IMG/VR virus record: IMGVR_UViG_3300033153_010157
Span: 1 to 41,931 of that record
Length of the DNA stretch: 41,931 nt
From: a virus
Strand: one strand, 5' to 3'
Positions 1,657 through 37,120 of this stretch are shown here, piece by piece. A program made the position numbers and the translations under genes. How positions within the stretch are numbered: the first letter of the stretch is position 1; the number at the start of each line of letters is the position of its first letter. The notes under the pieces were generated by a model that was given only the letters and a program-made list of their open reading frames with translations, made no database searches and was not told the origin of the DNA.

Positions 1657-3030
1657 TTAATACTTAATCCGACCAGTCTGCCCGTCAGTATTGAAAAAGT
1701 CCGGCAGCTTCGACTCTCCGCCATAAACAGACTCATAACGAAGCTTTTCAAGCTCTTCTGCTGACAGATCATCTCTCGTTTTTGGTAGCGATACACACAT
1801 GTAACGTAAGGCATCACAGGCGTGACTGTATCTATCATGAAGTGGAACATTCTTGTATACCTGCCTCTTGTCATCATACTCCTGCCTGTAATTTTCTATT
1901 GCTCTTATAAGCTTTGCACAACGCTCCTCATCAATCCATATTTTACTTAAAGCTGAACGAACCGACTCAATGCCATCCATTATCGGAAGCTTTGGCGCAA
2001 TAATGAAATCAATGCCGAGATTCTTCGCCTTTTCAATGCGTGTCATGCCAGAACCAAACTCTTTAACCGCTATGTCATGAGGCGCTATGTGCTTGCCGTA
2101 GGTGTACTCCTTTGATAACACATGCTTGACGTAGTGCTCAAGGCCCTCCTTGCTCTTCTCGTAGTAATCAATAATACGAACAGTTTGACCTATGGTCTGA
2201 AAAAAGATGATGGAAGTAGAATCACGTACGCCGATGTCAAAAGCTGTGTGGACACTAAAGCCCGCCTCCCATGGAACAACGCTGACCTGGTTGTTGAGCC
2301 TCATCCTGTCCAGGTACTTGCAGTAGTACGAACCCTCAACTCCTGCATCAAACGAGACATAATATTCCTGCTGAACCAGATCGGGCGACATCAGTCCCTC
2401 GTGTATCTCTCGATCTATTTCAGCAGGATCTATGTGCCTGGTCTCATTAAGACCAAGCTTACAAGTCCACCATTCCGGTGAATTCAATGCTAATTGATAA
2501 ATATCCCAAAAGTGATTACGACCACGTGGCGTACTCTGGAATATCGCCCAACCCTTATTGGCAGCTAGTATTGGTGACATTAGGGCATAGATACGTGGGT
2601 TCTGCAGAGCATATTCAGAAAAAACAACGCCGCGAGGGTTAGTGCCCACGATTCTATCTGGATTATCAGACCCAATGATTTGAATAATGGATCCATTTGT
2701 AAACACTACCTTCATGTCTTGAGAGTTCATCGCCTCAACGGCCTGCTTGGGTATGTAGTCCAAGAAGCGATCGCCCTGTATGGTTACTGAGCTCCATAAG
2801 ATCTTCTTGCCCTGCGCGTACGTAGGATACACGAGGTAGTAGACCCCCGGATTGACGAGCGCTTCTCGGATGACGATGTTCCAGGTGCAAAGGTCCTTGC
2901 CAGCACGACGACACATGACAATCACCATCCTTCTGAAACGATCCTTGAAGAACGCCTCAAAGATTGGACGCTGGTAGTCACGCGGCTTGAACTTGTTAAG
3001 GTGTATCTTCACCTCCACTGGATATTGCAC
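1657..3030 (-). CDS. terL: Terminase large subunit
   Basis: A 457-residue packaging motor. It shows an ATPase Walker A variant (CRRAGKD, residues 40-46), a Walker B with a following acidic residue (GVVFSEY, 134-140) and a coupling motif QSTPRG (165-170). The nuclease domain follows, with FDIG at 264-267, a middle PHDI and a C-terminal HDRYSHACDALRY. The enzyme translocates phage DNA into the prohead and cuts it at the end of a packaging round. The start is GTG at 3030 preceded by AAGGAGAATA; it overlaps the end of the upstream 50-residue gene by 35 bases. All catalytic motifs expected for a working terminase are present. It lies about 4.5 kb from the probable small subunit, separated by a run of small genes. 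Confidence 0.97.
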   Translation of the reverse strand: MQYPVEVKIHLNKFKPRDYQRPIFEAFFKDRFRRMVIVMCRRAGKDLCTWNIVIREALVNPGVYYLVYPTYAQGKKILWSSVTIQGDRFLDYIPKQAVEAMNSQDMKVVFTNGSIIQIIGSDNPDRIVGTNPRGVVFSEYALQNPRIYALMSPILAANKGWAIFQSTPRGRNHFWDIYQLALNSPEWWTCKLGLNETRHIDPAEIDREIHEGLMSPDLVQQEYYVSFDAGVEGSYYCKYLDRMRLNNQVSVVPWEAGFSVHTAFDIGVRDSTSIIFFQTIGQTVRIIDYYEKSKEGLEHYVKHVLSKEYTYGKHIAPHDIAVKEFGSGMTRIEKAKNLGIDFIIAPKLPIMDGIESVRSALSKIWIDEERCAKLIRAIENYRQEYDDKRQVYKNVPLHDRYSHACDALRYMCVSLPKTRDDLSAEELEKLRYESVYGGESKLPDFFNTDGQTGRIKY

Positions 3031-3148
3031 TATTCTCCTTTTTATCTAACCTTTGCTCCAACGCTTCAACCTTATCCGCTAATTCCTCAAGGGCCGCATA
3101 GACCTCCTTATTAAATCCGGCTTCTCTAATCCCATAATTATCACTCAT
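2996..3148 (-). CDS. Short coiled-coil protein, unknown
   Basis: A 50-residue protein starting at ATG 3148. The preceding GAGGAGGAGCTGC supplies a good ribosome-binding site and is also the end of the upstream gene (EEELHE). The middle (EVYAALEELADKVEALEQRLDKKE) is a clear heptad-type helix and the C-terminus is a flexible Gly/Ser/Glu tail. It overlaps the terminase start by 35 bases. It may be an oligomeric helper, but it is too short to be a normal small terminase and I assign no function. Confidence 0.65.
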   Translation of the reverse strand: MSDNYGIREAGFNKEVYAALEELADKVEALEQRLDKKENSAISSGGEDTP

Positions 3149-3419
3149 GCAGCTCCTCCTCAAACTTCTTCTGTAACGCCTTGCGCACCTCATCCTTGGG
3201 TATATGCTCCAGAAACGACTCCATACGCTCCAACCTTGTCTCTGCTAGCATCAACTTGCGCTCAAACTTGTTGCACCTGTCCATGTAATCAAGCACATGA
3301 TCAGAGTACACGTCAATCCGCTTCCTGTGATAGTCAATTCTGTCCTCGAGGCAAGCCGCACGCTCATCAATGTCCTCTCTGATCTCCCTGATCTTCGCCA
3401 ACATCTCTTCACTTTTCAC
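3141..3419 (-). CDS. Coiled-coil protein, unknown
   Basis: A 92-residue protein, almost wholly charged helix (EEMLAKIREIREDIDERAACLEDRIDYHRKR and onward), with a predicted coiled coil through most of its length. The start is GTG at 3419 in the context GGAG-CTCAA-GTGA, so start and upstream stop overlap by four bases. This spacing is the same as at the repeated boundaries further along the strand. No transmembrane segment or known domain is seen. It belongs to the small-gene run between the two terminase genes. Confidence 0.7.
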   Translation of the reverse strand: MKSEEMLAKIREIREDIDERAACLEDRIDYHRKRIDVYSDHVLDYMDRCNKFERKLMLAETRLERMESFLEHIPKDEVRKALQKKFEEELHE

Positions 3420-3802
3420 TTGAGCTCCTTCTCGAAGCTCGCCTTAGTTGCCTCCTTAAACGACCGCACAACCTCTTTATGCATATCAAAGGACGTCTTG
3501 TCCTTAACAGTGATAAACTCCTCGTACGTCACTATCTCGTCCGCTATAGCCATAAACTTGTTCACATCATCAAGCGTTGGCGCTCCATCCCATATCTTCC
3601 TGTAAATACGCCACGCCTTGTCACTGTAATTCTTCACCAGACGACCAACCTCAGACCTTAAAAGGATAAGATTCTTGGCCTCTATCGAGTTAGCCAGCTT
3701 ATCCGGTGGCTTACCCTTGAGCTCCTTGCTCTTGCGAACGTACTCCTTCTCAGCATCCTTGTACTTCTTGTAAAACGCCGGTAACTTTCTATTCCTTCCC
3801 AT
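3416..3802 (-). CDS. Hypothetical protein, basic helical
   Basis: A 128-residue protein beginning MGRNRKLPAFYKKYK, rich in Lys and predicted helix, with no recognised domain. The start is ATG 3802, taken because AAGGAGAAGTG gives five bases between GGAG and ATG; the frame could also start at the overlapping GTG three bases earlier. The region IWDGAPTLDDVNKFMAIADEIV may form a small helical bundle. The upstream boundary carries the repeated AAGGAGAAGTGATG unit, but the upstream gene here already stops before it. Function unknown. Confidence 0.7.
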   Translation of the reverse strand: MGRNRKLPAFYKKYKDAEKEYVRKSKELKGKPPDKLANSIEAKNLILLRSEVGRLVKNYSDKAWRIYRKIWDGAPTLDDVNKFMAIADEIVTYEEFITVKDKTSFDMHKEVVRSFKEATKASFEKELK

Positions 3803-3811
3803 CACTTCTCC

Positions 3812-3982
3812 TTACAAATGCTTTAATCCCTGCTTCCTTCTATCATCCACGCTTTTCTTACGCTCCTTCTCGCGATGCCTATCCAGCCAACTCAGTTCTC
3901 GCCACACGGACACCTCATGCGCTATTAACCAAACCGCGCTAGCAAGTCCAAAGCTTAACATTAACCCAGCCAGCTCACTCAT
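3812..3982 (-). CDS. Small membrane-anchored protein (56 aa)
   Basis: A 56-residue reading frame starting at ATG 3982 after AAGGAGAAGTG. Residues 2-20 (SELAGLMLSFGLASAVWLIA) form a hydrophobic N-terminal helix. The rest is a charged, basic helix (REKERKKSVDDRRKQ). This layout suggests a single-span membrane protein with a cytoplasmic tail. It fills the gap between two neighbours and has proper start and stop signals on both sides. No family recognised. Confidence 0.6.
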   Translation of the reverse strand: MSELAGLMLSFGLASAVWLIAHEVSVWRELSWLDRHREKERKKSVDDRRKQGLKHL

Positions 3983-3992
3983 CACTTCTCCT

Positions 3993-4229
3993 TCAGTATC
4001 TTGGCAGCATTCTTAATAACGCCATTACTGCCTCTGCAGGCGCAACAACCATTATAAGAAACAGCACTACGTGACCAGCAATCCTAACAGCAGCGCCATA
4101 AAACATATATAAAACACCGCCTACGAACGTATCACATTTTATCTTATCAAGATGGTTTGAAACGAAATCTAGTAAACTAATGCAACCCATGACAGCGCAC
4201 AAAACAACATAAACATTAAGCCTATACAT
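3993..4229 (-). CDS. Small two-span membrane protein
   Basis: A 78-residue protein with two hydrophobic segments: near the N-terminus (LNVYVVLCAVMGCISLLDFV) and near the C-terminus (IAGHVVLFLIMVVAPAEAVMALL). Holin-like size and layout are possible, but the gene lies in a run of unknown small genes and no holin family is recognised. The start is ATG 4229 at the AAGGAGAAGTGATG boundary. At its end the gene runs into a second copy of the same boundary DNA (AAGATACTGAAGGAGAAG) in a shifted frame and stops early, ending RY instead of KILKEK. Confidence 0.65.
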   Translation of the reverse strand: MYRLNVYVVLCAVMGCISLLDFVSNHLDKIKCDTFVGGVLYMFYGAAVRIAGHVVLFLIMVVAPAEAVMALLRMLPRY

Positions 4230-4750
4230 CACTTCTCCTTTAGTATCTTGTCCTCAATCTCAAATACACGGTCAACGTAGGCTATACCCTTCTCAACACT
4301 CACCTTGCCATCACTGCCCTTCTCACACTTCTTGATCTTTAAGCGAGCCATCTCCTTCCTGACCGCCTCATCCATCACTGAGCGGTACGCATCGTTCGCC
4401 TCTGTACTACGCTTAGCAGACTCCATGCACACCTCAAATGCCTTATCTTGCTCATGATCTAGAAGTACGTATGCTTTGTACTTAGCGCCATACTCACTAT
4501 CTGCTGAGTGTGGCGGCGGGATGTCACCGATTCGTGCTGCTTCAATGAGATGCGTACTTGCACTACCGTACTCAATATTACACATCACCTCTGAAATGCC
4601 GTGTGCCTCAAAAGCAAAATCCGCAAAGTCACTACGGGCAAGAATGCTCTTATCCCTTAAGTACTGGTGCTTACGGCATAAAGTGTGATACTCATCCCTT
4701 GCATCATCAGACACCTTCTTTAACTCGCGACACCTCTTCCACTCTTCCAT
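4229..4750 (-). CDS. Hypothetical protein, 173 aa, ends DKILKEK
   Basis: A 173-residue hydrophilic protein that starts MEEWKRCRELKK and ends DKILKEK. The longer open frame upstream is rejected because ATG 4750 has AAGGAG five bases before it and the upstream frame overlaps another gene. The protein is helical at both ends, with four scattered cysteines, and carries a Pro/His motif IPPPHSADSEYG near the middle. No known domain was recognised. Its last codons overlap the repeated boundary unit that serves as ribosome-binding site for the next gene. Confidence 0.7.
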   Translation of the reverse strand: MEEWKRCRELKKVSDDARDEYHTLCRKHQYLRDKSILARSDFADFAFEAHGISEVMCNIEYGSASTHLIEAARIGDIPPPHSADSEYGAKYKAYVLLDHEQDKAFEVCMESAKRSTEANDAYRSVMDEAVRKEMARLKIKKCEKGSDGKVSVEKGIAYVDRVFEIEDKILKEK

Positions 4751-4872
4751 CACTTCTCCTTGTCCTCCTCGTACTGCCGCTTGGCCTCCTTGATCAGGTC
4801 CTCTAACGTTGCACACAAGCTGTCGAGGCTGTCTGCTATGCGTACCAGTGGGTCAATTGCCTTCTTGCTCAT
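4750..4872 (-). CDS. Tiny helical protein (40 aa)
   Basis: A 40-residue frame with start ATG 4872 preceded by AAGGAGCAAG. It is a single amphipathic helix (VRIADSLDSLCATLEDLIKEAKRQYEEDKEK). Its last codons GACAAGGAGAAGTGA hold the Shine-Dalgarno of the following gene, giving the end KEK. The start overlaps the end of the upstream gene by 20 bases. It may work as an oligomerising peptide; function unknown. Confidence 0.55.
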   Translation of the reverse strand: MSKKAIDPLVRIADSLDSLCATLEDLIKEAKRQYEEDKEK

Positions 4873-5062
4873 CTTGCTCCTTAAGGGTTATAACCCATTT
4901 TTCATTAGCTATCTTCGGAGATCCGGAACGTTGTTCAGCAGGCTCAGGGGGAGTATACTCAAAGACAGCATCATAGCTTTCCTGGAATATCATCTCTGTG
5001 CCGCCCGCGTGATCTAATTCTATAAAATAACCCTTCTTCCCGTCAGTTTGCTTCTTTGGCAT
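4853..5062 (-). CDS. Small acidic hypothetical protein (69 aa)
   Basis: A 69-residue protein. ATG 5062 was chosen because GAGAGGAGGCAG precedes it; the open frame extends further upstream but would cover the neighbouring gene. The sequence (GYFIELDHAGGTEMIFQESYDAVFEY, then a Pro/Glu linker, then EKWVITLKEQDEQ) suggests a small beta-rich fold. It overlaps both neighbours by about 20 bases, typical of this tightly packed run. No family recognised. Confidence 0.6.
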   Translation of the reverse strand: MPKKQTDGKKGYFIELDHAGGTEMIFQESYDAVFEYTPPEPAEQRSGSPKIANEKWVITLKEQDEQEGN

Positions 5063-5204
5063 CTGCCTCCTCTCTAACGATGGCGTCGTATTCCTTCTTG
5101 ACCTCTGGGTCCTTGATGACTTCTTCCCAAAAGGCCTTGAACGTTGGTCTTTTAGACTCAATGGCCTTGTCGAGTGCGTTGCATACGTCTTGCTCCTTAC
5201 TCAC
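5043..5204 (-). CDS. Small hypothetical protein (53 aa)
   Basis: A 53-residue frame starting at GTG 5204 in the repeated boundary GAGGAGACCAAGTGAG, where the upstream stop TGA and the start GTG overlap by four bases. The protein MSKEQDVCNALDKAIESKRP and onward is helical and hydrophilic. The N-terminal MSK recurs at other starts in this array (6562, 7516) because the boundary unit extends into the first codons. Function unknown. Confidence 0.6.
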   Translation of the reverse strand: MSKEQDVCNALDKAIESKRPTFKAFWEEVIKDPEVKKEYDAIVREEADAKEAN

Positions 5205-5551
5205 TTGGTCTCCTCGGGGTTGTCCTCTTTGTAAAAGCGCTCAATTTGCTGCTCTAGCGCGTCTCCGATACGGAACAAGCCTTCATATACAACCTGATGA
5301 CCAGAGTGATCGCTTCGGCGCACCTGTATAACTTCGGATATATAAAAGTCTCGAACAGTCACGCTTACTCTTGCTTTCTTGGTCTTTCCTACCTCAACAA
5401 CGCTATTAACGTCTTCATATGAGAATTTGCTATTGAACTCATCATAGGCCCTGCGCGCTAGCTCATCTCCCAGCTTTGTTGCGGGCGCGTAAGTCTTCCA
5501 CTTGAGCTCCTTACCGTCTGCGCTTACGCAGTACTCTACTGGTTCTCTCAC
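5201..5551 (-). CDS. Hypothetical protein of the PEETK array (116 aa)
   Basis: A 116-residue protein starting at GTG 5551 inside the type I boundary. It seems to be a mixed alpha/beta fold: an N-terminal beta part (VEYCVSADGKELKWKTYAP), a helix (LGDELARRAYDEFNSKF), strands (RVSVTVRDFYISEVIQVRR) and a C-terminal helix (LEQQIERFYKED). It ends NPEETK, from the boundary unit. I recognise no family. It is the last of the consecutive genes with this tail. Confidence 0.7.
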   Translation of the reverse strand: MREPVEYCVSADGKELKWKTYAPATKLGDELARRAYDEFNSKFSYEDVNSVVEVGKTKKARVSVTVRDFYISEVIQVRRSDHSGHQVVYEGLFRIGDALEQQIERFYKEDNPEETK

Positions 5552-5958
5552 TTGGTCTCCTCTGGTAAATAGTCTTTGACCCTTATGTGGACGTATTTCG
5601 TATCGCTGTCATCGCGGTAACCTATGTCATACGCGTGAAGAAGAAACGCATACTCTTCATAACGGCATATCGCTACATCCTTGTCCACAGATTCTCTTTG
5701 ATCGTCAGATATTACAAGCACGCACCACCAACCTATCTTCCCTAGCTCTCCACCAAGCGCGTGCTCTGGTTCTTCGTAAGTTAATATCGAAACGAACTCT
5801 GGCATCTCTGTAAAGACACGGGCTAAGTCTGGGTGACAGGCTATGATGAAATCGTGAATATAGTCGTCGGCATACGGTGCGTCCCTGACCTTTTCTGGGT
5901 CGCCTCCGGCCAGCTCCCAGGCTACTTTGTTTAGCTTTTCAAGCAGCTCGTTACTCAC
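5548..5958 (-). CDS. Coat-protein-segment paralogue A (136 aa)
   Basis: A 136-residue protein starting at GTG 5958 in the type I boundary. Residues 34-85 align without a gap to coat protein residues 186-237. Matching features are the His followed by x-Asp-Leu (CHPDL against AHSDL), the F at position 22 of the segment, Y-x-x-P, E-x-G-x-IG, and a closing L..S. The C-terminal 45 residues (AICRYEEYAFLLHAYDIGYR) also recall the coat protein's following FCVGMEAYACV stretch. It is closest to the 7124-7516 protein. It lacks the N-terminal half of a coat protein, so it cannot build a shell alone. It may bind capsids, modulate assembly or act as a decoy; this is inference. Confidence 0.75.
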   Translation of the reverse strand: MSNELLEKLNKVAWELAGGDPEKVRDAPYADDYIHDFIIACHPDLARVFTEMPEFVSILTYEEPEHALGGELGKIGWWCVLVISDDQRESVDKDVAICRYEEYAFLLHAYDIGYRDDSDTKYVHIRVKDYLPEETK

Positions 5959-6263
5959 TTGGTCTCCTCGTCTTTCCATCGTTTATCGCACACAAATAAT
6001 CTTACCTCACCTATTGATCCTATCTCGCCCTGCATTTTTTTTAACGCCAGTGGGTAGCTACCTGCTCCGATAAATCCATGTGCGCTTTCGATGTCGTCTA
6101 CCGCGCTCGCCGCACATGCTACAAACACGGCATACTTGCGGGGCTCATCGCTAAATATGGTTCCCATAAATCCACTATCTCCTGGAAGGGCACCGATAAG
6201 ATCAAACGTTGCGCCTCTTAGTTCGTTTGGTTTAAATACTTTCTCTTCCTCTTCAAGTCTCAC
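5955..6263 (-). CDS. Coat-protein-segment paralogue B (102 aa)
   Basis: A 102-residue protein starting at GTG 6263 in the type I boundary. Residues 43-94 align without a gap to coat residues 186-237, sharing GFI, YP, and the E-G-IG-R signature (GEIGSIGEVRLF). The conserved His of the other copies is Ala here. The protein ends soon after the signature (DKRWKDEETK), so it lacks the C-terminal strands present in copies A, C and D. Its N-terminal 40 residues (KPNELRGATFDLIGALPGDSGF) are unique. Start and stop are both set by boundary repeats. Confidence 0.7.
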   Translation of the reverse strand: MRLEEEEKVFKPNELRGATFDLIGALPGDSGFMGTIFSDEPRKYAVFVACAASAVDDIESAHGFIGAGSYPLALKKMQGEIGSIGEVRLFVCDKRWKDEETK

Positions 6264-6562
6264 TTGGTCTCCTCGGGCGCTCTCATCTTCCTGTATGCGT
6301 TGTACGAGTCAAGATCACCATAAAGTGATTCGCGCAGTTCTTGCTGCATTTTCATGTCTCTTTCTGCCTCTTTCTCGAAAGACCTATCGCACTCCTCTGT
6401 CACCCCGTATTTTTCTATTATAAGTTCGTCGATGGCGGCACTGCATTCATCGCACACTGCGCAATGCACCTTCATTGCAACGCCTATTGCAAGAACTGAG
6501 TCGTTTCTCTTCCTGTACAGCACTCGACATTTAGCAAATAGTTCGTCGTATTTCTTACTCAC
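6260..6562 (-). CDS. Cys-containing helical protein (100 aa), PEETK tail
   Basis: A 100-residue protein, GTG start at 6562 in a variant boundary. It is mostly helical and charged. A short cysteine cluster (HCAVCDEC) near residue 35 could bind a metal ion, with another Cys after a GVTEECDRSF stretch. It ends APEETK from the boundary unit. No recognised family. Its size and organisation match the other cassette genes. Confidence 0.65.
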   Translation of the reverse strand: MSKKYDELFAKCRVLYRKRNDSVLAIGVAMKVHCAVCDECSAAIDELIIEKYGVTEECDRSFEKEAERDMKMQQELRESLYGDLDSYNAYRKMRAPEETK

Positions 6563-6834
6563 TTGACCTCCTCTGGCAGGTTGATTGTTACTGTGTTGTT
6601 ACGGCACTTCTTGCATTCGCACAGCACAACTCTCTCTCCAATCTCTTCTCCTGGGGGCGGCTCTTCAAACCAGCACCCACCAACAACTCTTGGTTCGAGG
6701 TTGTACTGTTCCGTGCCATCTTCATCTGTCCACTTTACGACCGTCATGGCGCCGACAACGCCATCGTCGCCTTTAAATGCCTTGCGCATCGACTCAAGCG
6801 CTGCCTGTTTTTCTTCTTCTGTCTTTACGAACAC
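6559..6834 (-). CDS. Possible zinc-ribbon-like small protein (91 aa)
   Basis: A 91-residue protein starting at GTG 6834. The C-terminal half contains CECKKC preceded by a beta-type stretch (GERVVLCE) and an earlier Cys (GGCWFEEPPPGEE). This is suggestive of a small zinc-binding knuckle. It ends TINLPEEVK, and the last codons (ACAATCAACCTGCC then GAGGAG) match the end of the small terminase gene over a longer stretch than the boundary core. Its start overlaps the upstream gene, which reads through the usual stop position (ETKCS). Confidence 0.65.
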   Translation of the reverse strand: MFVKTEEEKQAALESMRKAFKGDDGVVGAMTVVKWTDEDGTEQYNLEPRVVGGCWFEEPPPGEEIGERVVLCECKKCRNNTVTINLPEEVK

Positions 6835-7127
6835 TTGGTCTCCTCTGGCAGGTTGCGTGTCTTTGAAAACTCCCGATAAGTGGCTGATCCAAGTATCTGC
6901 CAGCCGAGGTCGCTGGAGAGTCTCAGTGTGTCGTTGCCCTTCAGGTCTTTGAACTCCTCCGTTTTAAGCATCTTTTCAACGAGGTAGTCGAGTGCGCCTC
7001 TGTAATTCTTTGAGTACATCTTATGTTTGTCGGCTAACTGCATGTACTGAACGTAAGTATCATCTGTCTGTATCTTCATGGTGCAGCATTGTTCATAAAG
7101 GTGCTGGAGGTGTTTTGGTATTGTCAC
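6825..7127 (-). CDS. Hypothetical helical protein (100 aa), LPEETKCS end
   Basis: A 100-residue protein starting at GTG 7127 in the type I boundary. It is helical and rich in Lys, Tyr and Met, with the middle part YRGALDYLVEKMLKTEEF. The boundary unit at its end lacks the A that would complete TGA, so the frame goes two codons further and ends LPEETKCS. This shows the boundary DNA can be carried even when it no longer supplies the stop. Function unknown. Confidence 0.65.
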   Translation of the reverse strand: MTIPKHLQHLYEQCCTMKIQTDDTYVQYMQLADKHKMYSKNYRGALDYLVEKMLKTEEFKDLKGNDTLRLSSDLGWQILGSATYREFSKTRNLPEETKCS

Positions 7128-7516
7128 TTGGTCTCCTCGGGCAGATAGTCTTTGACCCTTATGCGGATACAGGTCGTGCCAGAACGATTGATATAATCGA
7201 TGTCATACGCATGATAAAAACACGGGTCAAACTCATAGCGGCATATTGCTATTTCCCTGTCTTTGCAGCGTCTTATTGCGTCAGATGTTGCCAATAGTAT
7301 AAATGGGCCAATTCTACCTAGCTCTCCACCATACAGGTTCTCTGGCTCCTCTTCAGCCAAACTAGAAACAAACTCTTTCATTCCCATAAAGACAGGGGTC
7401 AAATCAGCATGACAGGCTATAATCAACTCGTAACAGGGATTCTTCGCAATCCCCTCAAGGTTAACGCCTGCTAGCTCCTTAGCTACGCTATTTAACTTGT
7501 CAAAAAGCTTACTCAC
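7124..7516 (-). CDS. Coat-protein-segment paralogue C (130 aa)
   Basis: A 130-residue protein starting at GTG 7516. Residues 28-79 align without a gap with coat protein residues 186-237: H-x-D-L, F, E-P, E-x-G-x-IG and L-L-x-x-S are shared. It closely resembles the 5548-5958 protein along its whole length, including the N-terminal KLN-VA-ELAG and the C-terminal IRVKDYLPEETK, so the two are recent duplicates. It sits directly after the probable small terminase gene, joined by a type I boundary. Role unknown; capsid binding or modulation is the natural hypothesis. Confidence 0.75.
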   Translation of the reverse strand: MSKLFDKLNSVAKELAGVNLEGIAKNPCYELIIACHADLTPVFMGMKEFVSSLAEEEPENLYGGELGRIGPFILLATSDAIRRCKDREIAICRYEFDPCFYHAYDIDYINRSGTTCIRIRVKDYLPEETK

Positions 7517-8022
7517 TTGGTCTCCTCAGGCAGGTTGATTGTTTTTGTGTCGTCTTTTTTGGAGAAGTCTTCGAGTACGAAGGTGTATCGGGTGTCGGTT
7601 GGAGCGTTGACTTGAGTACGTGCTTTGAGTTCGGCTCTCCATACTTCGAGGTCTTTCCATGATTTGTCGTATTTGGCCATTTGGTTCATGACCAGTGATG
7701 CGTTGAGTTTATTTTTGAGTGCGCCTATTTCGCGTCGATTGCCTATAAGCTCTAGGGCTGTGTCTTTGACGAGTTTTAGTGTTTCGTATTTATTGACCCA
7801 TCGGTAGAAGGTCATACTGGGAATGCCCTTTGAGAAGATGAACTGAGTGAGTTTGAGAGCTGTGTCGTCTTTCATGGCCCATTCGATTAATTCGAGGGCT
7901 AATCTGTCTATAAAAGCATCGCTTATTGGCTTCTGCCGAAGCGTGAAAAGGTCCTTGTAGACCTCCGCAACGGACATGGTAGGATTATACTCTTTTGTGT
8001 TATTGTTAAGAGTTTTGGACAT
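7513..8022 (-). CDS. Probable terminase small subunit
   Basis: A 169-residue protein from ATG 8022 (preceded by CAGGAG). The N-terminal part includes a helix-turn-helix-like stretch (GIPSMTFYRWVNKYE, about residues 66-80). A helical region typical of terminase small subunits follows (ELIGNRREIGALKNK ... KYDKSWKDLEVWRAELK). Such proteins form rings that recognise the packaging site and load DNA to TerL. The tail TINLPEETK belongs to the boundary repeat and not to the family. It is separated from terL by a run of small genes, which is unusual because the two subunits are normally adjacent. The assignment rests on sequence character and context, so other DNA-binding roles remain possible. Confidence 0.65.
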   Translation of the reverse strand: MSKTLNNNTKEYNPTMSVAEVYKDLFTLRQKPISDAFIDRLALELIEWAMKDDTALKLTQFIFSKGIPSMTFYRWVNKYETLKLVKDTALELIGNRREIGALKNKLNASLVMNQMAKYDKSWKDLEVWRAELKARTQVNAPTDTRYTFVLEDFSKKDDTKTINLPEETK

Positions 8023-10727: not shown

Positions 10728-10916
10728 ATGAAAGACGACATCAAATCAGAGAAAAAGACATTTATAGACACATTAGACAAGTTTGACCAGAAAGTTATCG
10801 AGCTTGCAGCAAAAGAAGCAGGAATACCATTCGAAAAAGCTAAAGATGCTATGATAACGTCTGACGAGTGGGTGGAGCTGACCAACGCAGCTGCGCGCAT
10901 ATCAGAGCTTAACTAA
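10728..10916 (+). CDS. Small protein with MKDDIKS leader (62 aa)
   Basis: A 62-residue helical protein starting at ATG 10728 after GAGGAGTAGCG. Its first codons are nearly identical at the DNA level to those of the 11057-11308 gene (both encode MKDDIKS-x-KKT). After that the two proteins are unrelated. The body (FDQKVIELAAKEAGIPFEKAKDAM ... DEWVELTNAAARISELN) is a compact three-helix pattern. It stands alone behind a structured leader and is probably an early, strongly expressed gene. Function unknown. Confidence 0.7.
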   Translation: MKDDIKSEKKTFIDTLDKFDQKVIELAAKEAGIPFEKAKDAMITSDEWVELTNAAARISELN

Positions 10917-11382: not shown

Positions 11383-11459
11383 GGGGCAGTAGCTTAATAG
11401 GTTTGAGCATCGGCCTTTCACGCCGGAGGTTGCGGGTTCGAATCCCGTCTGCCCTTCCA
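11383..11459 (+). tRNA. tRNA-Glu (anticodon UUC)
   Basis: A full cloverleaf can be drawn. The acceptor GGGGCAG pairs with CTGCCCT, the D stem is GCTT/GAGC, and the anticodon stem is TCGGC/GCCGG with loop CTTTCAC, so the anticodon is TTC. The T arm has loop TTCGAAT. The CCA end is encoded (11457-11459). The first acceptor pair is G-T. It reads GAA and GAG, codons that are frequent in the acidic early proteins. Confidence 0.95.
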
Positions 11460-11473
11460 CTAGACAGACAAAT

Positions 11474-11550
11474 GGGCCAGTAGTTTAAATGGTACAGAAC
11501 AGTGGACTCCAAATCCACAGGAGGGGGTTCGATTCCCTCCTGGCCTGCCA
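11474..11550 (+). tRNA. tRNA-Trp (anticodon CCA)
   Basis: The cloverleaf has acceptor GGGCCAG/CTGGCCT, D stem GTTT/GAAC, and anticodon stem GTGGA/TCCAC with loop CTCCAAA, giving anticodon CCA. The T-arm loop is TTCGATT. The discriminator base is G and the CCA end is encoded. It is an ordinary UGG decoder and not a stop suppressor. It follows tRNA-Glu by 14 bases in the same transcript. Confidence 0.95.
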
Positions 11551-11737: not shown

Positions 11738-11783
11738 TGGGGTAGTGAAAGAAACGAGTAAACCAAAGACCGAGGAGACCAAG

Positions 11784-12209
11784 ATGGAAATGAAAGTAAC
11801 GAGGGCACTTAGCACTCTAGCCGTGACGTTCAACAATGCAATCATTGCGTTCCTGTATGACGACAATAGGGACGCCATAGACAAGTTTGACGCCTTCTTC
11901 GATGCAGCAAGTGATTTTGCTTTTGTTGCAGAAGAGGAAGAAAACCTGTTGGAGATCATGGATGATCGCATGGCAAAGCGAACGTTTTATTGGAATTTTG
12001 ATAAACAACTCAAAGAAAAAACTGGAAACCTGCAAGAAGAATACGATGAAGCGAACGCAGAAGTCGAGCGTGCCTATTACAACTCAGATAAATATGGCGA
12101 CACAACATACGAGATGGAAAGGATCGCAACAATGCTAAACCTACTGGAAAAAGTAGTCGTTTCAAAAAAAGAAGATGAAGAAGCATGGAAGGTTACATTT
12201 AAAAACTGA
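11784..12209 (+). CDS. Early hypothetical protein (141 aa)
   Basis: A 141-residue protein starting at ATG 11784, preceded by GAGGAGACCAAG, a copy of the type I boundary without the stop. The open frame runs further upstream through the promoter, which is not coding. The protein is helical, with an N-terminal hydrophobic helix (ALSTLAVTFNNAIIAFLY) and a long acidic coiled-coil C-terminal part (EEYDEANAEVERAYYN). It is the first gene after the strong promoter. No family recognised. Confidence 0.75.
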   Translation: MEMKVTRALSTLAVTFNNAIIAFLYDDNRDAIDKFDAFFDAASDFAFVAEEEENLLEIMDDRMAKRTFYWNFDKQLKEKTGNLQEEYDEANAEVERAYYNSDKYGDTTYEMERIATMLNLLEKVVVSKKEDEEAWKVTFKN

Positions 12210-12279
12210 AAAGTTCGTGATAGGTTCGTGAATTTTGTCAAGCGTATGGAAACCAGATGGAAACTTTTAGGAGACCAAG

Positions 12280-12453
12280 ATGATATTAATAATTGCGCTG
12301 ATTATTTTCGTCAGTATGTACTTTAGCGCCGAAAGCAATGCCAAAAGCAGCGCCAAATGCAGTGACAAAAGAATTGAAATTATGCGCCTAGAGATACACG
12401 ACCTTGAGGACGAGAAGAAGAAACTTGAAGAAAAGATAAAGGAGTTATCATGA
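12280..12453 (+). CDS. Small membrane-anchored coiled-coil protein (57 aa)
   Basis: A 57-residue protein starting at ATG 12280 after GGAGACCAAG, another boundary-unit copy. The N-terminus is hydrophobic (MILIIALIIFVSMYFSA), followed by a short Ser/Ala stretch with one Cys and a charged coiled coil (EIHDLEDEKKKLEEKIKELS). It resembles very small inner-spanin-like or signal-anchored proteins, but its early location argues against lysis. The stop overlaps the next start (ATGA). Confidence 0.7.
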   Translation: MILIIALIIFVSMYFSAESNAKSSAKCSDKRIEIMRLEIHDLEDEKKKLEEKIKELS

Positions 12454-13472: not shown

Positions 13473-13865
13473 GTGAACCGAGAAAAGCTAGACGAAGCCA
13501 CCATAAAACTAATGAAATACTGCACCACTCGCGAAAGTGATGCTGACTCTCGCGAGTGGTTCCTATCTGTTTGTCATCCCAAATCTGCCGCCGTCCTCAG
13601 GGACGTAAAAGGGTTTATACCGATTTGCAAATATGAATACCCAGAAGATGGCTTCGAAGGAGAGATAGGATCAATAGGAAACCTCAGGATACTGTTAGCG
13701 TCATATCATCGAGAACCAGAAGGCGACCACCATTACGTTACATCCTACCTGGTAAGCCATCAAGCCAGAATAAAAGGTACCCGCTTTGAACGTACATTCG
13801 ATATAGATGTAATGTCAGATATAAAAGTAATCGCAGCACTAGCCGCCAACCAAAAGGAAGACTAA
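13473..13865 (+). CDS. Coat-protein-segment paralogue D (130 aa), early operon
   Basis: A 130-residue protein; the frame starts 2 bases after the RHH stop (GTG, AAGG upstream). Residues 27-78 align without a gap to coat protein residues 186-237 with 20 of 52 identical. Shared positions include RE-x-F, the His, GFI, Y-x-x-P, and E-x-G-x-IGNLR-x-LL-x-S. This is the closest of the four paralogues to the coat protein. Unlike the others it lies on the opposite strand, in the early recombination operon, and lacks the PEETK end. Coat-derived proteins made early could prepare, regulate or mimic the capsid; no function is shown. Confidence 0.75.
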   Translation: MNREKLDEATIKLMKYCTTRESDADSREWFLSVCHPKSAAVLRDVKGFIPICKYEYPEDGFEGEIGSIGNLRILLASYHREPEGDHHYVTSYLVSHQARIKGTRFERTFDIDVMSDIKVIAALAANQKED

Positions 13866-14425
13866 TGCCAACAGATAAGGCCCCTAAAGCAGAAGTGAGA
13901 GGCGTACAAGAACAAATCAACGACCTGTCGGCACTCCAAAGATATGCACGAGAGATCGCGAAAAAAGACTTCTTCTACAACGTAACGTCACCTCAAACCA
14001 ACGAGATCGTAGCCGCACTAGCAAAGTTCAAAGAAGGCATGGGCGAAATGAAAACAGATAAGACCGCAGGCGGACGATACAAGTACCAGAGCCTACCGGG
14101 CCTGCTCAACGCCATCTCGCCAGGACTGGCCAAAAATGGCTGCGTATGCATGCAACCCGTCCAGTCACTAGGCGACACAACATACGTCATAACCATGATC
14201 ATGCACTCCAGCGGACAGTACGTACGATCCATCACCGCAATACCCGCACAATACCTCATGGCAGGTAAAATCGTAACAACCAAAGAAAATCTACAAGCAA
14301 TGGGCGGCGCAATAACATACACCAAACGACACTCACTTAAATCAATACTCGGCATAGACGCAGACGAAGATACCGACGGCGGTGGCGCAACATACACACC
14401 ACGGAGCAACTATGGAAACAACTGA
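13865..14425 (+). CDS. erf: ERF-family single-strand annealing protein 1
   Basis: A 186-residue protein starting at ATG 13865, overlapping the preceding TAA by one base. The ERF pattern is clear: YKYQSLPGLLNAISPGLAKNG near residues 75-95, a hydrophobic beta region (TYVITMIMHSSGQYVRS), and the characteristic MGGAITYTKRHSLKSILGID followed by an acidic DEDTDGGG. ERF proteins form rings that anneal complementary single strands and drive phage recombination and genome circularisation. It is slightly short, lacking a long C-terminal extension. A second, diverged ERF gene lies 2 kb downstream. Confidence 0.9.
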   Translation: MPTDKAPKAEVRGVQEQINDLSALQRYAREIAKKDFFYNVTSPQTNEIVAALAKFKEGMGEMKTDKTAGGRYKYQSLPGLLNAISPGLAKNGCVCMQPVQSLGDTTYVITMIMHSSGQYVRSITAIPAQYLMAGKIVTTKENLQAMGGAITYTKRHSLKSILGIDADEDTDGGGATYTPRSNYGNN

Positions 14426-14859: not shown

Positions 14860-16107
14860 ATGAGAAAGATAGACATAGAATACGCAACGATACCAACGCT
14901 TTGCTCTGTAGAAGATCTTGTACAACTCAGAATTTTTGACACAAAAGATAGCTTCTATATAGCAAGAGCCGCCGGAAAATCACCCATAGCAACAAGAATA
15001 AAAGGCGCAAAAGGCCTCTTCTTCAAAAAAAAAGAAGTCATCTCATTCATAAAAAACCACAACGCAAACGAGTCATTCACCTTTTCAGCTGATTACGCAC
15101 ACGCTATGCCAGAAGCAAAAACGAACCTCCCACCAAAGGCCAGCTATAAAGAGTGGCGACGAACACCCATCAACGTCAAAATCGAAGACGGCAATAAATA
15201 CTCACGTCTAGACCTCATCAGAATTGGCGTATTCACATCAGATAAAACATATTATACAGCAAAAAACAAACACAACCACTACATAAACAACAGAGTGACA
15301 ATAGGCAAGCCAGGAGGCGGATACGGACACTTCTACCATTCTGACGATGTAAAAGTATTCATCGAAAGACACAACGAAATAGCGGCCAAATCATACGTCC
15401 GCGGTATAACAGCAAAAACAAAGCCGCAAAAAACTAGCCAGAGAAAACTATCAATCGAAGAAGAAGCCAAATCCTTAAAACCAAGATCCTGGAGACACTG
15501 CGGCCTAACGTACAGAGACTGGATCAGGACCCCAATAACGAAAACACTAGAAGAAAGCAATAAGCGCTACACAATACGAGAACTATGCGGATTGGACATA
15601 TTCCCACAAGGCGCATCTCTGGCATACGCCAAGTGCAAGGTCGACTACTTCCCAGAACCCACAGACACATCGCAGATATCAAATCTCGGAGCCAGAATTC
15701 ACAAATTTAGTACTCAAGTTATTAATAACTTCATCAAAACTCACAACGAAAAACTCAAGGTCCGTAACCCTAACAGGACTCGAACTCCCAAACAGCCCAC
15801 AGAGACACCCAAACAGCAACAAATAGAGGTGCCAATGGACACACCTAACAGGACTCGAACTCCTGAACCAAAACCGCGGTTCCTTCCTGCTGACAGAGAA
15901 TTCGAAGAAGCTCTCGAAGAAAGAAGACTCGAACTAGTAAAACAACAAAAAGCGGAACAAGCGGAACAAATGCCCACCCTCTTAGACCAAAAAGTCGCAC
16001 AGCCTGTGCGACAACCCGAAACATCGTCAGACAACCCAAAAGTAGTCGTCTCTGTAGGAAATTACATAGTGACCGTCAACATAGAAAGGATCGACGATGG
16101 AAGCTGA
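14860..16107 (+). CDS. Protein with three tandem winged-helix-like modules (415 aa)
   Basis: A 415-residue basic protein starting at ATG 14860 after AAGGAAACA. Three repeats of about 60-90 residues each run from a helix (SVEDLVQLRIF, SRLDLIRIGVF, TIRELCGLDIF) through a variable basic wing to a helix ending FIKNHN, FIERHN or FIKTHN. Modules 2 and 3 are each preceded by a Y-x-x-W-x-RTPI stretch. This looks like triplicated MerR/excisionase-type DNA-binding domains. A Pro/Thr linker with NRTRTP twice, a charged helix (EEALEERRLELVKQQK) and a small beta end (VVVSVGNYIVTVNIERIDD) follow. It may bind an array of sites. No named family recognised. Confidence 0.65.
   Translation: MRKIDIEYATIPTLCSVEDLVQLRIFDTKDSFYIARAAGKSPIATRIKGAKGLFFKKKEVISFIKNHNANESFTFSADYAHAMPEAKTNLPPKASYKEWRRTPINVKIEDGNKYSRLDLIRIGVFTSDKTYYTAKNKHNHYINNRVTIGKPGGGYGHFYHSDDVKVFIERHNEIAAKSYVRGITAKTKPQKTSQRKLSIEEEAKSLKPRSWRHCGLTYRDWIRTPITKTLEESNKRYTIRELCGLDIFPQGASLAYAKCKVDYFPEPTDTSQISNLGARIHKFSTQVINNFIKTHNEKLKVRNPNRTRTPKQPTETPKQQQIEVPMDTPNRTRTPEPKPRFLPADREFEEALEERRLELVKQQKAEQAEQMPTLLDQKVAQPVRQPETSSDNPKVVVSVGNYIVTVNIERIDDGS
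15769..15863 (+). repeat. 20-base direct repeat within the 415-aa gene
   Basis: CCTAACAGGACTCGAACTCC occurs at 15769-15788 and 15844-15863, 75 bases apart, encoding PNRTRTP twice in frame. The string includes an inverted pair (CAGGA/TCCTG) in the second copy and resembles the antisense of a tRNA T arm. The surrounding 55 bases are not repeated. Confidence 0.8.
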
Positions 16108-16514
16108 AAAAGTGTACCGAGATGAGAATTTTGTAGGAAGGCTTGAGCTACTCCTTTCCAACGGTCCTGAGGCGTCTGTTCACCTTTACATATGGAACAA
16201 TGGCGAGCATGGATACGACGAATTCACGGCCCGTGAAATTATAGAAAAGCTAAAAGACATACTTAGCGATGCGGGCCTAACGCACTTCTTAGACACAGAA
16301 GAGCTTATGAGGATAAGATTAAGATTCTCCACACTTCAGTGCCCACGTAAAGACATATACAGAAACGCCATAGAGTGCGAAGACGATGAATTCTACATAA
16401 AAAAAGAAGAGAATGCAGTTTGCGCCATTGAAAGGCGACTACATATCATACTGGAAGATTACGGGTTGCTACCATACGAGGAGGATGATGACGATGGAAG
16501 CTGAGAAAGTGCCC
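16093..16514 (+). repeat. Type III gene-boundary repeat (DDGS end / MEAEKV start)
   Basis: GACGATGGAAGCTGA followed by R-AAAGTG occurs at 16093-16114 and again at 16490-16511. Each copy ends one protein with DDGS and starts the next with MEAEKV, the two frames overlapping. The junction at 14412 (ATGGAA...CTGAGAAAGT) is a weaker third copy. The genes joined are unrelated. Confidence 0.85.
16097..16504 (+). CDS. Hypothetical protein between two type III boundaries (135 aa)
   Basis: A 135-residue acidic protein starting at ATG 16097 (GAAAGGATCGACG upstream) and overlapping the previous gene by 11 bases. It has a beta-rich start (SVHLYIWNNGEHGYDEF) and a helical remainder (AREIIEKLKDILSDAGL). 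It ends in an acidic stretch and DDGS from the boundary repeat. No family recognised. It sits as a cassette between the three-module DNA-binding protein and the second ERF. Confidence 0.7.
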   Translation: MEAEKVYRDENFVGRLELLLSNGPEASVHLYIWNNGEHGYDEFTAREIIEKLKDILSDAGLTHFLDTEELMRIRLRFSTLQCPRKDIYRNAIECEDDEFYIKKEENAVCAIERRLHIILEDYGLLPYEEDDDDGS

Positions 16515-17261
16515 CAAAACGATACACATATGCTTTCCCGCCTTGAGGAACTTGAGGCATATGTTGAAAAGAAGATCCAGCAGCGACTCAAGAAAGAAAA
16601 GCCCGCGCCATACGAATCCGAAAAGACCGACCAGATAGCAACTGCACTCGCCAAGGCACAGGGCGAGTTCCCAGTAATCAACACCAACAGAGCCAACAAC
16701 TTCCTGTTCAACCAGTACTCCGACCTCGACATCATCATGCGAACAATACGACCCGCTCTTTCAGTGAACGGCCTTTCAGTGACACAACAAACCAAATTGA
16801 TAGACGATAAGATCATTCTCGTCACTAGATTGCGACACAAGTCGTCACAGTTCATCGAGACCAGGACCAGGATCATCCCCTCAAAGAACGATCTGCAGTC
16901 TTACTCGTCCGCGATGGATAAGATGAGACGTGGTGACATCAAGAGCCTCTTGAACATCACAATCGTTGATGATTACGACGACGACGATGGCGAACACGAC
17001 ATGAAAGAGGTACGGAAGGAGCGGAACAAAGGAACAGGTATAAATACCAGGTACGAAGCAAGAAGGGAGTCTTTCGAGCCCATCACTCAACACCAAGAAA
17101 GCGAACTGCAGTACATGCTCGGAGACTACCCCGATATCGCAGAAAACATCCTGGAAACCCTCAAAGTGCAAACACTAGCCGATATACCCAAGTCCAAGTT
17201 CGGACCCGTTAGGGATCAAGCTCAAAAGATTATCAACGCCAGGGAAGGCCGTAACAAATAA
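16494..17261 (+). CDS. ERF-family single-strand annealing protein 2
   Basis: A 255-residue protein starting at ATG 16494 (GAGGAGGATGATGACG upstream); the longer frame upstream lies in the previous gene. The ERF core is recognisable: ATALAKAQGEFP, YSDLDIIMRTIRPALSVNGL, VTRLRHKSSQFIETRT, then SYSSAMDKMRRGDIKSLLNI and an acidic DDYDDDDGE. The family's GSAITYARRY-type motif is altered to SYSSAMDKMRR. The C-terminal extension (EPITQHQESELQYMLGDYPDIAENIL) resembles a small helical domain seen after other annealases. It is diverged from the first ERF, so this is an old duplication or a second acquisition and not a recent copy. Confidence 0.85.
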   Translation: MEAEKVPQNDTHMLSRLEELEAYVEKKIQQRLKKEKPAPYESEKTDQIATALAKAQGEFPVINTNRANNFLFNQYSDLDIIMRTIRPALSVNGLSVTQQTKLIDDKIILVTRLRHKSSQFIETRTRIIPSKNDLQSYSSAMDKMRRGDIKSLLNITIVDDYDDDDGEHDMKEVRKERNKGTGINTRYEARRESFEPITQHQESELQYMLGDYPDIAENILETLKVQTLADIPKSKFGPVRDQAQKIINAREGRNK

Positions 17262-36169: not shown

Positions 36170-37120
36170 TTATGGTGCTAGGGTTGTACGTAAGTTGATG
36201 ATCCACTCATCGTTCAAGATGCGAGGAACCTCAGCAAACTTATATCCAACAGAAGCATTGAGTGCGAGTGGCCCGTCATAAATAGGCGGACGATAGATGA
36301 ACTGAGCAGAATATTGATCTTGTTCAACACACGCATAAGCTTCCATCCCAACACAAAAGATATTGTATCTCATCGCACCAAGCGCCGAAGCCCCAATTTC
36401 ACGAGAGCCGACCGAGGACAACAAGAATCTTAGATTCCCAATTGCTCCCCACTCCGATCTCGTAGCATTCATAGGCGACGGATACTGCGCTTTGGCAATA
36501 AAGCCAGCGGTAGCATCAAGCTCGCCAATGAGGTCTGAGTGCGCCAATGCGAAAAAAGATTCTCTAACTGGAGCAGTTCCGAACTTATCTTCACCTTCAA
36601 TATTGTCCATTATAGTATAAGCGTCTGCTCCAACAAGAGTTCTAACAACGGTGTCAATATCACCAATTGTAACTTCTGTTGGGTTATCGCCGTTGACACC
36701 ACCGACGCAGTTGATAGCAGCCGCACCTGCAGCAAGCATCTCACGTGTCAGTTGATCTTCGGTCTGTCTTAGAGAAACACCCAATCGCTTAGCTGCTTCA
36801 TTCAATACAGGATCTTGGTTCTGGAGGGTAACCTGCTCGTTCAGTTGAACGTAGGTACCATAAAACGAAATCTCTGCATCGATGTCGATAGCTGTGAGCA
36901 ATTGTGATGGTGGATGAACCCCGCCGTTCCCCAATGGAACCATAGCGGTTTCTAACGGATTATATCTCCTCATCCTAAGCGTTGTTCCACCTTTAGCAGG
37001 CATAGTCTTTTTGACAGCCGCTATCTTGTGGATCAAGTTAGGAACCGGAACACTGAGTAATTTCATGGAGAATGAATGTTGGACCGGTGCTGGGAGATTC
37101 GCCGTAGTTGTAATAGGCAT
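36170..37120 (-). CDS. Major capsid (coat) protein, N4-gp56-like
   Basis: A 316-residue protein starting at ATG 37120 (TTAGGATAATT upstream). The N-terminal half is helical with a typical coat N-arm and E-loop region (KTMPAKGGTTLRMRRYNPLETA). Residues 186-237 contain the coat-family segment: AHSDL, GFI, YPSP, and EWGAIGNLRFLLSS. HK97-fold coats of the N4-gp56 group carry a Glu-x-Gly-x-Ile-Gly signature at the same place. The gene follows the scaffold and precedes decoration-type genes. A late-type promoter and a three-copy repeat lie in its leader. Four small proteins elsewhere in the window share its 186-237 segment. Confidence 0.88.
   Translation of the reverse strand: MPITTTANLPAPVQHSFSMKLLSVPVPNLIHKIAAVKKTMPAKGGTTLRMRRYNPLETAMVPLGNGGVHPPSQLLTAIDIDAEISFYGTYVQLNEQVTLQNQDPVLNEAAKRLGVSLRQTEDQLTREMLAAGAAAINCVGGVNGDNPTEVTIGDIDTVVRTLVGADAYTIMDNIEGEDKFGTAPVRESFFALAHSDLIGELDATAGFIAKAQYPSPMNATRSEWGAIGNLRFLLSSVGSREIGASALGAMRYNIFCVGMEAYACVEQDQYSAQFIYRPPIYDGPLALNASVGYKFAEVPRILNDEWIINLRTTLAP

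Follow-up and report, generated by a model that had tools for sequence, protein, structure and literature searches.

Why the same boundary DNA stands at the ends of neighbouring small genes of one phage, and is read there in different frames, is the question raised by this locus. The window analysed here was the whole virus record of 41,931 bp, with a gene set that included a large terminase, a portal, a major head protein, RusA and two Erf-like annealing proteins. The gap between the terS-like gene and terL was 4483 bp in the window; at 29 other loci it ranged between -25 and 3621 bp. The terS protein gave 0 matches against the phage collection. No relatives were found for gene 4229-4750, and none were found by tblastn for genes 3993-4232 and 3812-3985 in the first 28 loci and a later set of about 110.

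Anatomy of the repeated junctions

The sequence-only reading had placed the same boundary DNA at 3980 and 4227, and this was borne out. The 14-mer AAGGAGAAGTGATG was exact at both positions (3980-3993 and 4227-4240) and in two further copies (3800-3813 and 4748-4761), all on the minus strand and only at four consecutive gene junctions on the terL side of the terS-terL interval. When up to three mismatches were allowed, 16 matches were counted against 4.2 expected, a number reached in 0 of 100 shuffles. The longer upstream part noticed at 3980 and 4227 was also recovered: CAAGATACT-R-AAGGAGAAGTGATG was common to the two copies with 23 of 24 bases identical, and a repeat finder extended a weaker likeness over 37 nt (84%). 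Each junction of this family (family A) contained the Shine-Dalgarno sequence AAGGAG, a two-base AA spacer and a GTGATG start with an overlapping TGA. In two of the four copies the upstream gene ends at this TGA. Copies 1 and 2 had the overlapping stop and start with the Shine-Dalgarno sequence in the upstream gene (a TGA/ATG overlap in copy 1), whereas in copies 3 and 4 the upstream gene stopped at the Shine-Dalgarno sequence instead, by a TGA within CTGAAG immediately 5' of it in gene 3993-4232 and by a TAA inside it in copy 4. The earlier reading had missed the Shine-Dalgarno sequence and the overlapping stop/start, which account in an ordinary way for some of the conservation. Among the IMG/VR matches listed, almost all stretches held one copy of the 14-mer (single in 79 of 80, double in 1 of 80), so that four copies within 1 kb are exceptional.

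A second sequence, GAGGAGACCAAGTGA, followed terS and ended eight consecutive genes (terS and seven more) as EETK, with GAGGAG as the Shine-Dalgarno sequence and a GTG start for the next gene. The exceptions in this family (family B) were one EEVK ending and one gene reading on by two codons. Stop and start overlapped in all B copies, the overlap being longer in copy 3. The core GGAGACCAAG occurred exactly nine times in the whole window, seven times on the minus strand and twice on the plus strand, and all nine copies were located at gene starts; the two on the plus strand preceded an ATG and ended no gene. A search of viral_contigs with the B sequence returned one isolated, single-copy match on an unrelated contig.

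Judged from their sequence and from the placement of 4/4 A copies and 9/9 exact cores at gene starts, the A and B boundaries are almost certainly translation-start junctions. The translation of each gene is probably coupled to that of the gene before it, as suggested by the overlap and by published tests of other pairs, in which 13 of 14 tested pairs with overlapping stop and start were coupled (H. volcanii and E. coli; PMC6728339).

Table 1. Junction copies and neighbouring genes in the window (peptides in brackets are the last residues before the stop codon)
Feature	Position	Strand	Context
A copy 1, AAGGAGAAGTGATG, frame 0	4748..4761	-	end of 4750-4872 (..YEEDKEK), start of 4229-4750
A copy 2, extended CAAGATACTAAAGGAGAAGTGATG, frame 0	4227..4250	-	end of 4229-4750 (..DKILKEK), start of 3993-4232
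A copy 3, extended CAAGATACTGAAGGAGAAGTGATG, frame 2	3980..4003	-	end of 3993-4232 (..MLPRY), start of 3812-3985
A copy 4, frame 1	3800..3813	-	end of 3812-3985 (..LKHL), start of 3416-3805
B copy 1, GAGGAGACCAAGTGA	7513..7527	-	terS 3' end (INLPEETK), GTG start of 7124-7516
B copy 2	7124..7138	-	(DYLPEETK)
B copy 3	6831..6845	-	(NLPEETKCS); TGA to TGT, upstream gene two codons longer
B copy 4	6559..6573	-	(INLPEEVK)
B copy 5	6260..6274	-	(APEETK)
B copy 6	5955..5969	-	(KDEETK)
B copy 7	5548..5562	-	(YLPEETK)
B copy 8	5201..5215	-	(NPEETK)
B core on other strand, GAGGAGACCAAG	11772..11786	+	ATG start of 11784-12209; no upstream gene ending there
B core on other strand, GGAGACCAAG	12270..12282	+	ATG start of 12280-12453
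terL, large terminase	1657..3030	-	
terS-like gene	7513..8022	-	assigned by position and synteny; in close relatives, the orthologues upstream of terL have 41-49% identity to it
terS-terL interval	3031..7512	-	small, mostly orphan genes; longer here than at any other of the 30 loci
Erf-like single-strand annealing protein 1	13865..14425	+	candidate recombination engine
Erf-like single-strand annealing protein 2	16479..17261	+	

Conservation of the DNA and of the encoded peptide

The reading of one boundary in two frames was confirmed, gene 4229-4750 ending in EDKILKEK and gene 3993-4232 in MLPRY, and it extended to all four copies. The 14-mer was read in frames 0, 0, 2 and 1 of the upstream genes, so that all three frames were used, and the stop fell at the junction every time although the endings (YEEDKEK, DKILKEK, MLPRY and LKHL) differed. 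Since the 14-mer is read in all three frames, the peptide is not what is kept, and a peptide tag was rejected for family A. A sequencing or assembly indel in 3993-4232 could hide a KILKEK ending and make the two-frame reading an artefact, and the alternative KILKEK frame is indeed open for about 31 codons with a plausible tail, GVIKNAAKILKEK. Such an error is unlikely to be the explanation. At 3800 the KEK frame of the copy meets a TAA four codons upstream, so this copy is out of frame in its own right, and the point about frames stands in either case.

Family B offers more to the idea that a C-terminal peptide tag (KEK or LPEETK) was retained on many proteins. Eight genes ended in LPEETK or a near version of it, the EETK peptide and its DNA were kept together in 8/8 copies bar one T-to-V change, and the C-terminus of TerS carried an NLPEE-type tail in the window and in relatives L001 and L031 (NLPE in L005). 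The tag is nevertheless highly improbable, given the three frames of the A copies, the presence of GGAGACCAAG before plus-strand starts where it ends no gene, and the EETK codons, which were GAG GAG ACC AAG with zero synonymous variation. The preceding Leu and Pro codons varied (CTG/TTA and CCT/CCC/CCA). If the tails were independent, the probability that all seven further EETK tails would be GAG GAG ACC AAG was about 1e-10 to 1e-11 under the phage codon usage, a value calculated as if all were identical while one of the eight actually has GTC. In the paralogue pair 5548/7124, codons differed at 29 of 59 identical residues in the body and at 2 of 12 in the tail; the contrast runs in the direction expected but is weak alone.

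The frames of the A copies, the plus-strand cores and the invariant codons together uphold the earlier claim that the DNA rather than the peptide is kept, but the conservation holds within this genome only. Both sequences were absent from the first 28 TerL relatives, including those with 81-84% identical TerL, and the spacer at the orthologous terS junction was ACCAA in the window, ATGAA in L031, AAATA in L001 and TAGAG in L005.

Origin of the shared junction DNA

Within-genome pairs of starts sharing at least 10 upstream nt numbered 23, against 0.76 expected from between-genome pairs. In 233 loci, a non-random sample made up of terminase relatives and a scan for the A 14-mer, the top multiplicity of one pre-start 10-mer was 1 in 208 loci, 2 in 23, 5 in one unrelated contig (L147) and 7 in the window phage. 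The five minus-strand starts of the unrelated contig had GAGAAAGTAA in common, and this contig may hold a further set of repeated start junctions. The likeness could simply reflect convergence of ordinary strong ribosome-binding sites with overlapping stop/start on a good Shine-Dalgarno sequence, as AAGGAG followed by TGATG makes a good start and, among the matches listed, many other phages have a single copy of the 14-mer. Convergence is quite unlikely, however, because spacers varied at the other Shine-Dalgarno starts of the same genome, because such sharing among the 233 loci was confined to the window phage and the one unrelated contig, and because the flanks are identical beyond the ribosome site. 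The end of terS matched the end of the non-homologous gene 6559-6834 with a score of 31 (null maximum 14), and at B copy 4 a 41-nt stretch agreed with the terS end at 36 of 41 positions, in spite of the difference between the genes themselves. The junctions lay inside coding DNA, with little intergenic space.

The reading that we favour, with a probability of about 0.6, is that these are translationally coupled starts, which recombination at the DNA level duplicated while small genes were accumulating. Within a tightly packed operon, each junction combines a Shine-Dalgarno sequence, either AAGGAG or GAGGAG, with a short spacer and with a GTG or ATG that overlaps the upstream stop or comes directly after it. 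Small genes would have been acquired between terS and terL by gains, duplications or short-homology exchanges, in which the Erf-type annealing proteins of the phage were probably used, and at each new gene the event would have left behind duplicated DNA, taken from the terS 3' end or from an adjacent junction; the terS-like gene is the likely source of the NLPEE/Shine-Dalgarno tail. Since the stop/start design tolerates any frame, a copied junction would function regardless of how the new upstream gene runs into it, which would explain why two successive genes end differently, one in KILKEK and the other in PRY. Copying of the junction DNA is proposed as the reason why the copies are alike beyond the needs of a ribosome site, and it is the best account of the flank identity, the genome-specific versions and the arrangement in blocks. 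In effect the junction resembles a handle by which further small genes could be slotted into the operon. In keeping with an Erf-type annealing route, the Erf of phage D3 is roughly as efficient as lambda Red at recombination between diverged DNAs (PMC3945230). The two Erf-like proteins of the window, both in one phage, were related to each other (E 4e-13).

By sequence comparison, several relatives have repeated junctions of their own sequence, with TerS-end or TerL-start DNA duplicated within their intervals. In L001 the interval held a terS-end copy (score 21, null maximum 12) and a terL-start copy (22, null maximum 13); a terL-start copy was also found in L031 (17, null maximum 14) and a junction copy in L240 (22, null maximum 15), while those in L236 (15, null maximum 13) and L235 (13, null maximum 12) were weak. 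Most of the differences between the terL-start copies in L001 and L031 and the resident terL were synonymous, the pattern to be expected had the copies been acquired from a diverged relative.

Some observations count against copying. Exact shared runs at most junctions were 14-16 nt, shorter than the 23-27 bp quoted as the minimal pairing length of Red-beta (PMC3945230). The two opposite-strand B cores lie in another operon and are not explained by simple tandem duplication. The interval genes of many close relatives had no clear terS-end copy, and none scored above the null in L002, L004, L005, L006, L033, L034 and L237, in which interval genes are present. No empty-site relative was found among the relatives, so that no insertion event was directly seen. 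A bolder form of the copying reading, which we regard as doubtful, is a frame-tolerant cassette port: an incoming small gene with one junction copy would anneal at an existing junction and be translated at once by coupling, the array would grow without an integrase, each lineage would homogenise its own port, and some genes would apparently derive from pieces of the capsid gene.

Several small proteins and gene starts of the window showed other likenesses. The proteins of 5548-5958(-), 7124-7516(-), 5955-6263(-) and 13473-13865(+) had a segment of 50-120 aa in common with the major head protein (36170-37120), with pairwise E values of 4e-9 to 4e-4 and a probability of 96% in profile comparison, and 13473-13865 matched phrog_1357 (4.4e-6). 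These four proteins are possible capsid-fragment paralogues; AlphaFold predictions for them had a mean pLDDT of 50 and were set aside. The unrelated small genes at 10728 and 11057 (+) had almost identical first 34 nt (MKDDIKS[E/D]KKT), a copy on the start side that runs downstream of the start codon, and the two genes at 16097 and 16494 (+) both began with GACGATGGAAGCTGA(A/G)AAAGTG (MEAEKV), the second being an Erf-like gene. In L001, the small gene 4907-5221 of the terS-terL interval resembled a GroES-type co-chaperonin, as judged by eye. A known structured RNA was rejected for the junctions, as the whole window contained only two tRNAs, the adjoining tRNA-Glu and tRNA-Trp genes at 11383-11550 (+).

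Relation to known phage repeats

We know of no ordinary coupled gene pairs in which the same spacer and flanks recur across many junctions. Lambdoid phages have conserved boundary sequences, short common DNA at gene borders proposed to serve as recombination homology; those are common to different phages at matching borders, whereas the junctions here stand at different borders of one phage. The overlapping stop/start and the Shine-Dalgarno sequence inside the upstream gene are as in coupled pairs with ATGA/TGATG overlaps (PMC6728339).

The nearest precedents are the Start-Associated Sequences (SAS) of cluster K mycobacteriophages and the PeSL cassettes of T4-like phages, and the junctions belong to neither. 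SAS are short repeats with an AGGAG-type core, located a few bases before the starts of unrelated, mostly small non-structural genes; they are conserved beyond anti-Shine-Dalgarno pairing, the upstream stop can fall inside them, and about half are accompanied by 17-bp inverted repeats (ESAS) (PMC3203893, PMC7302621). Their consensus is GGGATAGGAGCCC in cluster K mycobacteriophages and GGGAAAGGACCCC in cluster EF Microbacterium phages (PMC3203893, PMC7302621). The junctions resemble SAS in their many asymmetric copies directly upstream of starts (9/9 for GGAGACCAAG, 4/4 for A). They are set apart by their sequences, AAGGAGAAGTGATG and GAGGAGACCAAGTGA, and by being genome-specific, whereas SAS are shared across related phages; they also lie mostly in coding DNA, have overlapping stop/start and are clustered at adjoining junctions.

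Selection for a favoured start, as was considered for SAS (PMC3203893), is the main rival to copying, and the two plus-strand B copies favour it somewhat. With no more than about 2-5 nt of neutral spacer, such selection could account for part of the identity. As an SAS-like functional motif, the Shine-Dalgarno sequence and spacer would be selected together, recognised by a phage or host factor or by a particular ribosome interaction, and the identity would be kept by selection; the location of all copies at gene starts on both strands, the spacer, which was identical in 4/4 A and 7/8 B junctions, and the known examples in phages of clusters K and EF (PMC3203893, PMC7302621) agree with this. 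We consider it rather unlikely, because the terS-junction spacer was different in every relative checked, because the relatives with 81-84% identical TerL lack both motifs while the cluster K SAS is common to three subclusters (PMC3203893), and because the identity runs into flanks with no ribosome-site role.

In T4-like phages, PeSL (promoter early stem-loop) cassettes are described as repeated intergenic DNA thought to shuffle small genes, each with an early promoter and a stem-loop terminator (PMC4503421). On that description the proposed effect is alike, the shuffling of small genes, but the repeat here is a ribosome site. Between 3000 and 11000, promoter-like sites numbered 7 against 9.3 expected, and the one terminator-like match on the minus strand (4637-4621) lay away from the A and B junctions; the lack of promoter and stem-loop separates the junctions from PeSL, and a promoter or terminator element was rejected because promoter-like sites were not in excess in the region.

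Copied junctions would provide a concrete, testable route by which phages gather runs of small orphan genes. If every gene brings along a copy of a junction that loads ribosomes whatever the frame, the new arrival would be expressed at once. With one 14-base sequence read in three frames, conservation at the DNA level can be cleanly separated here from conservation at the peptide level.
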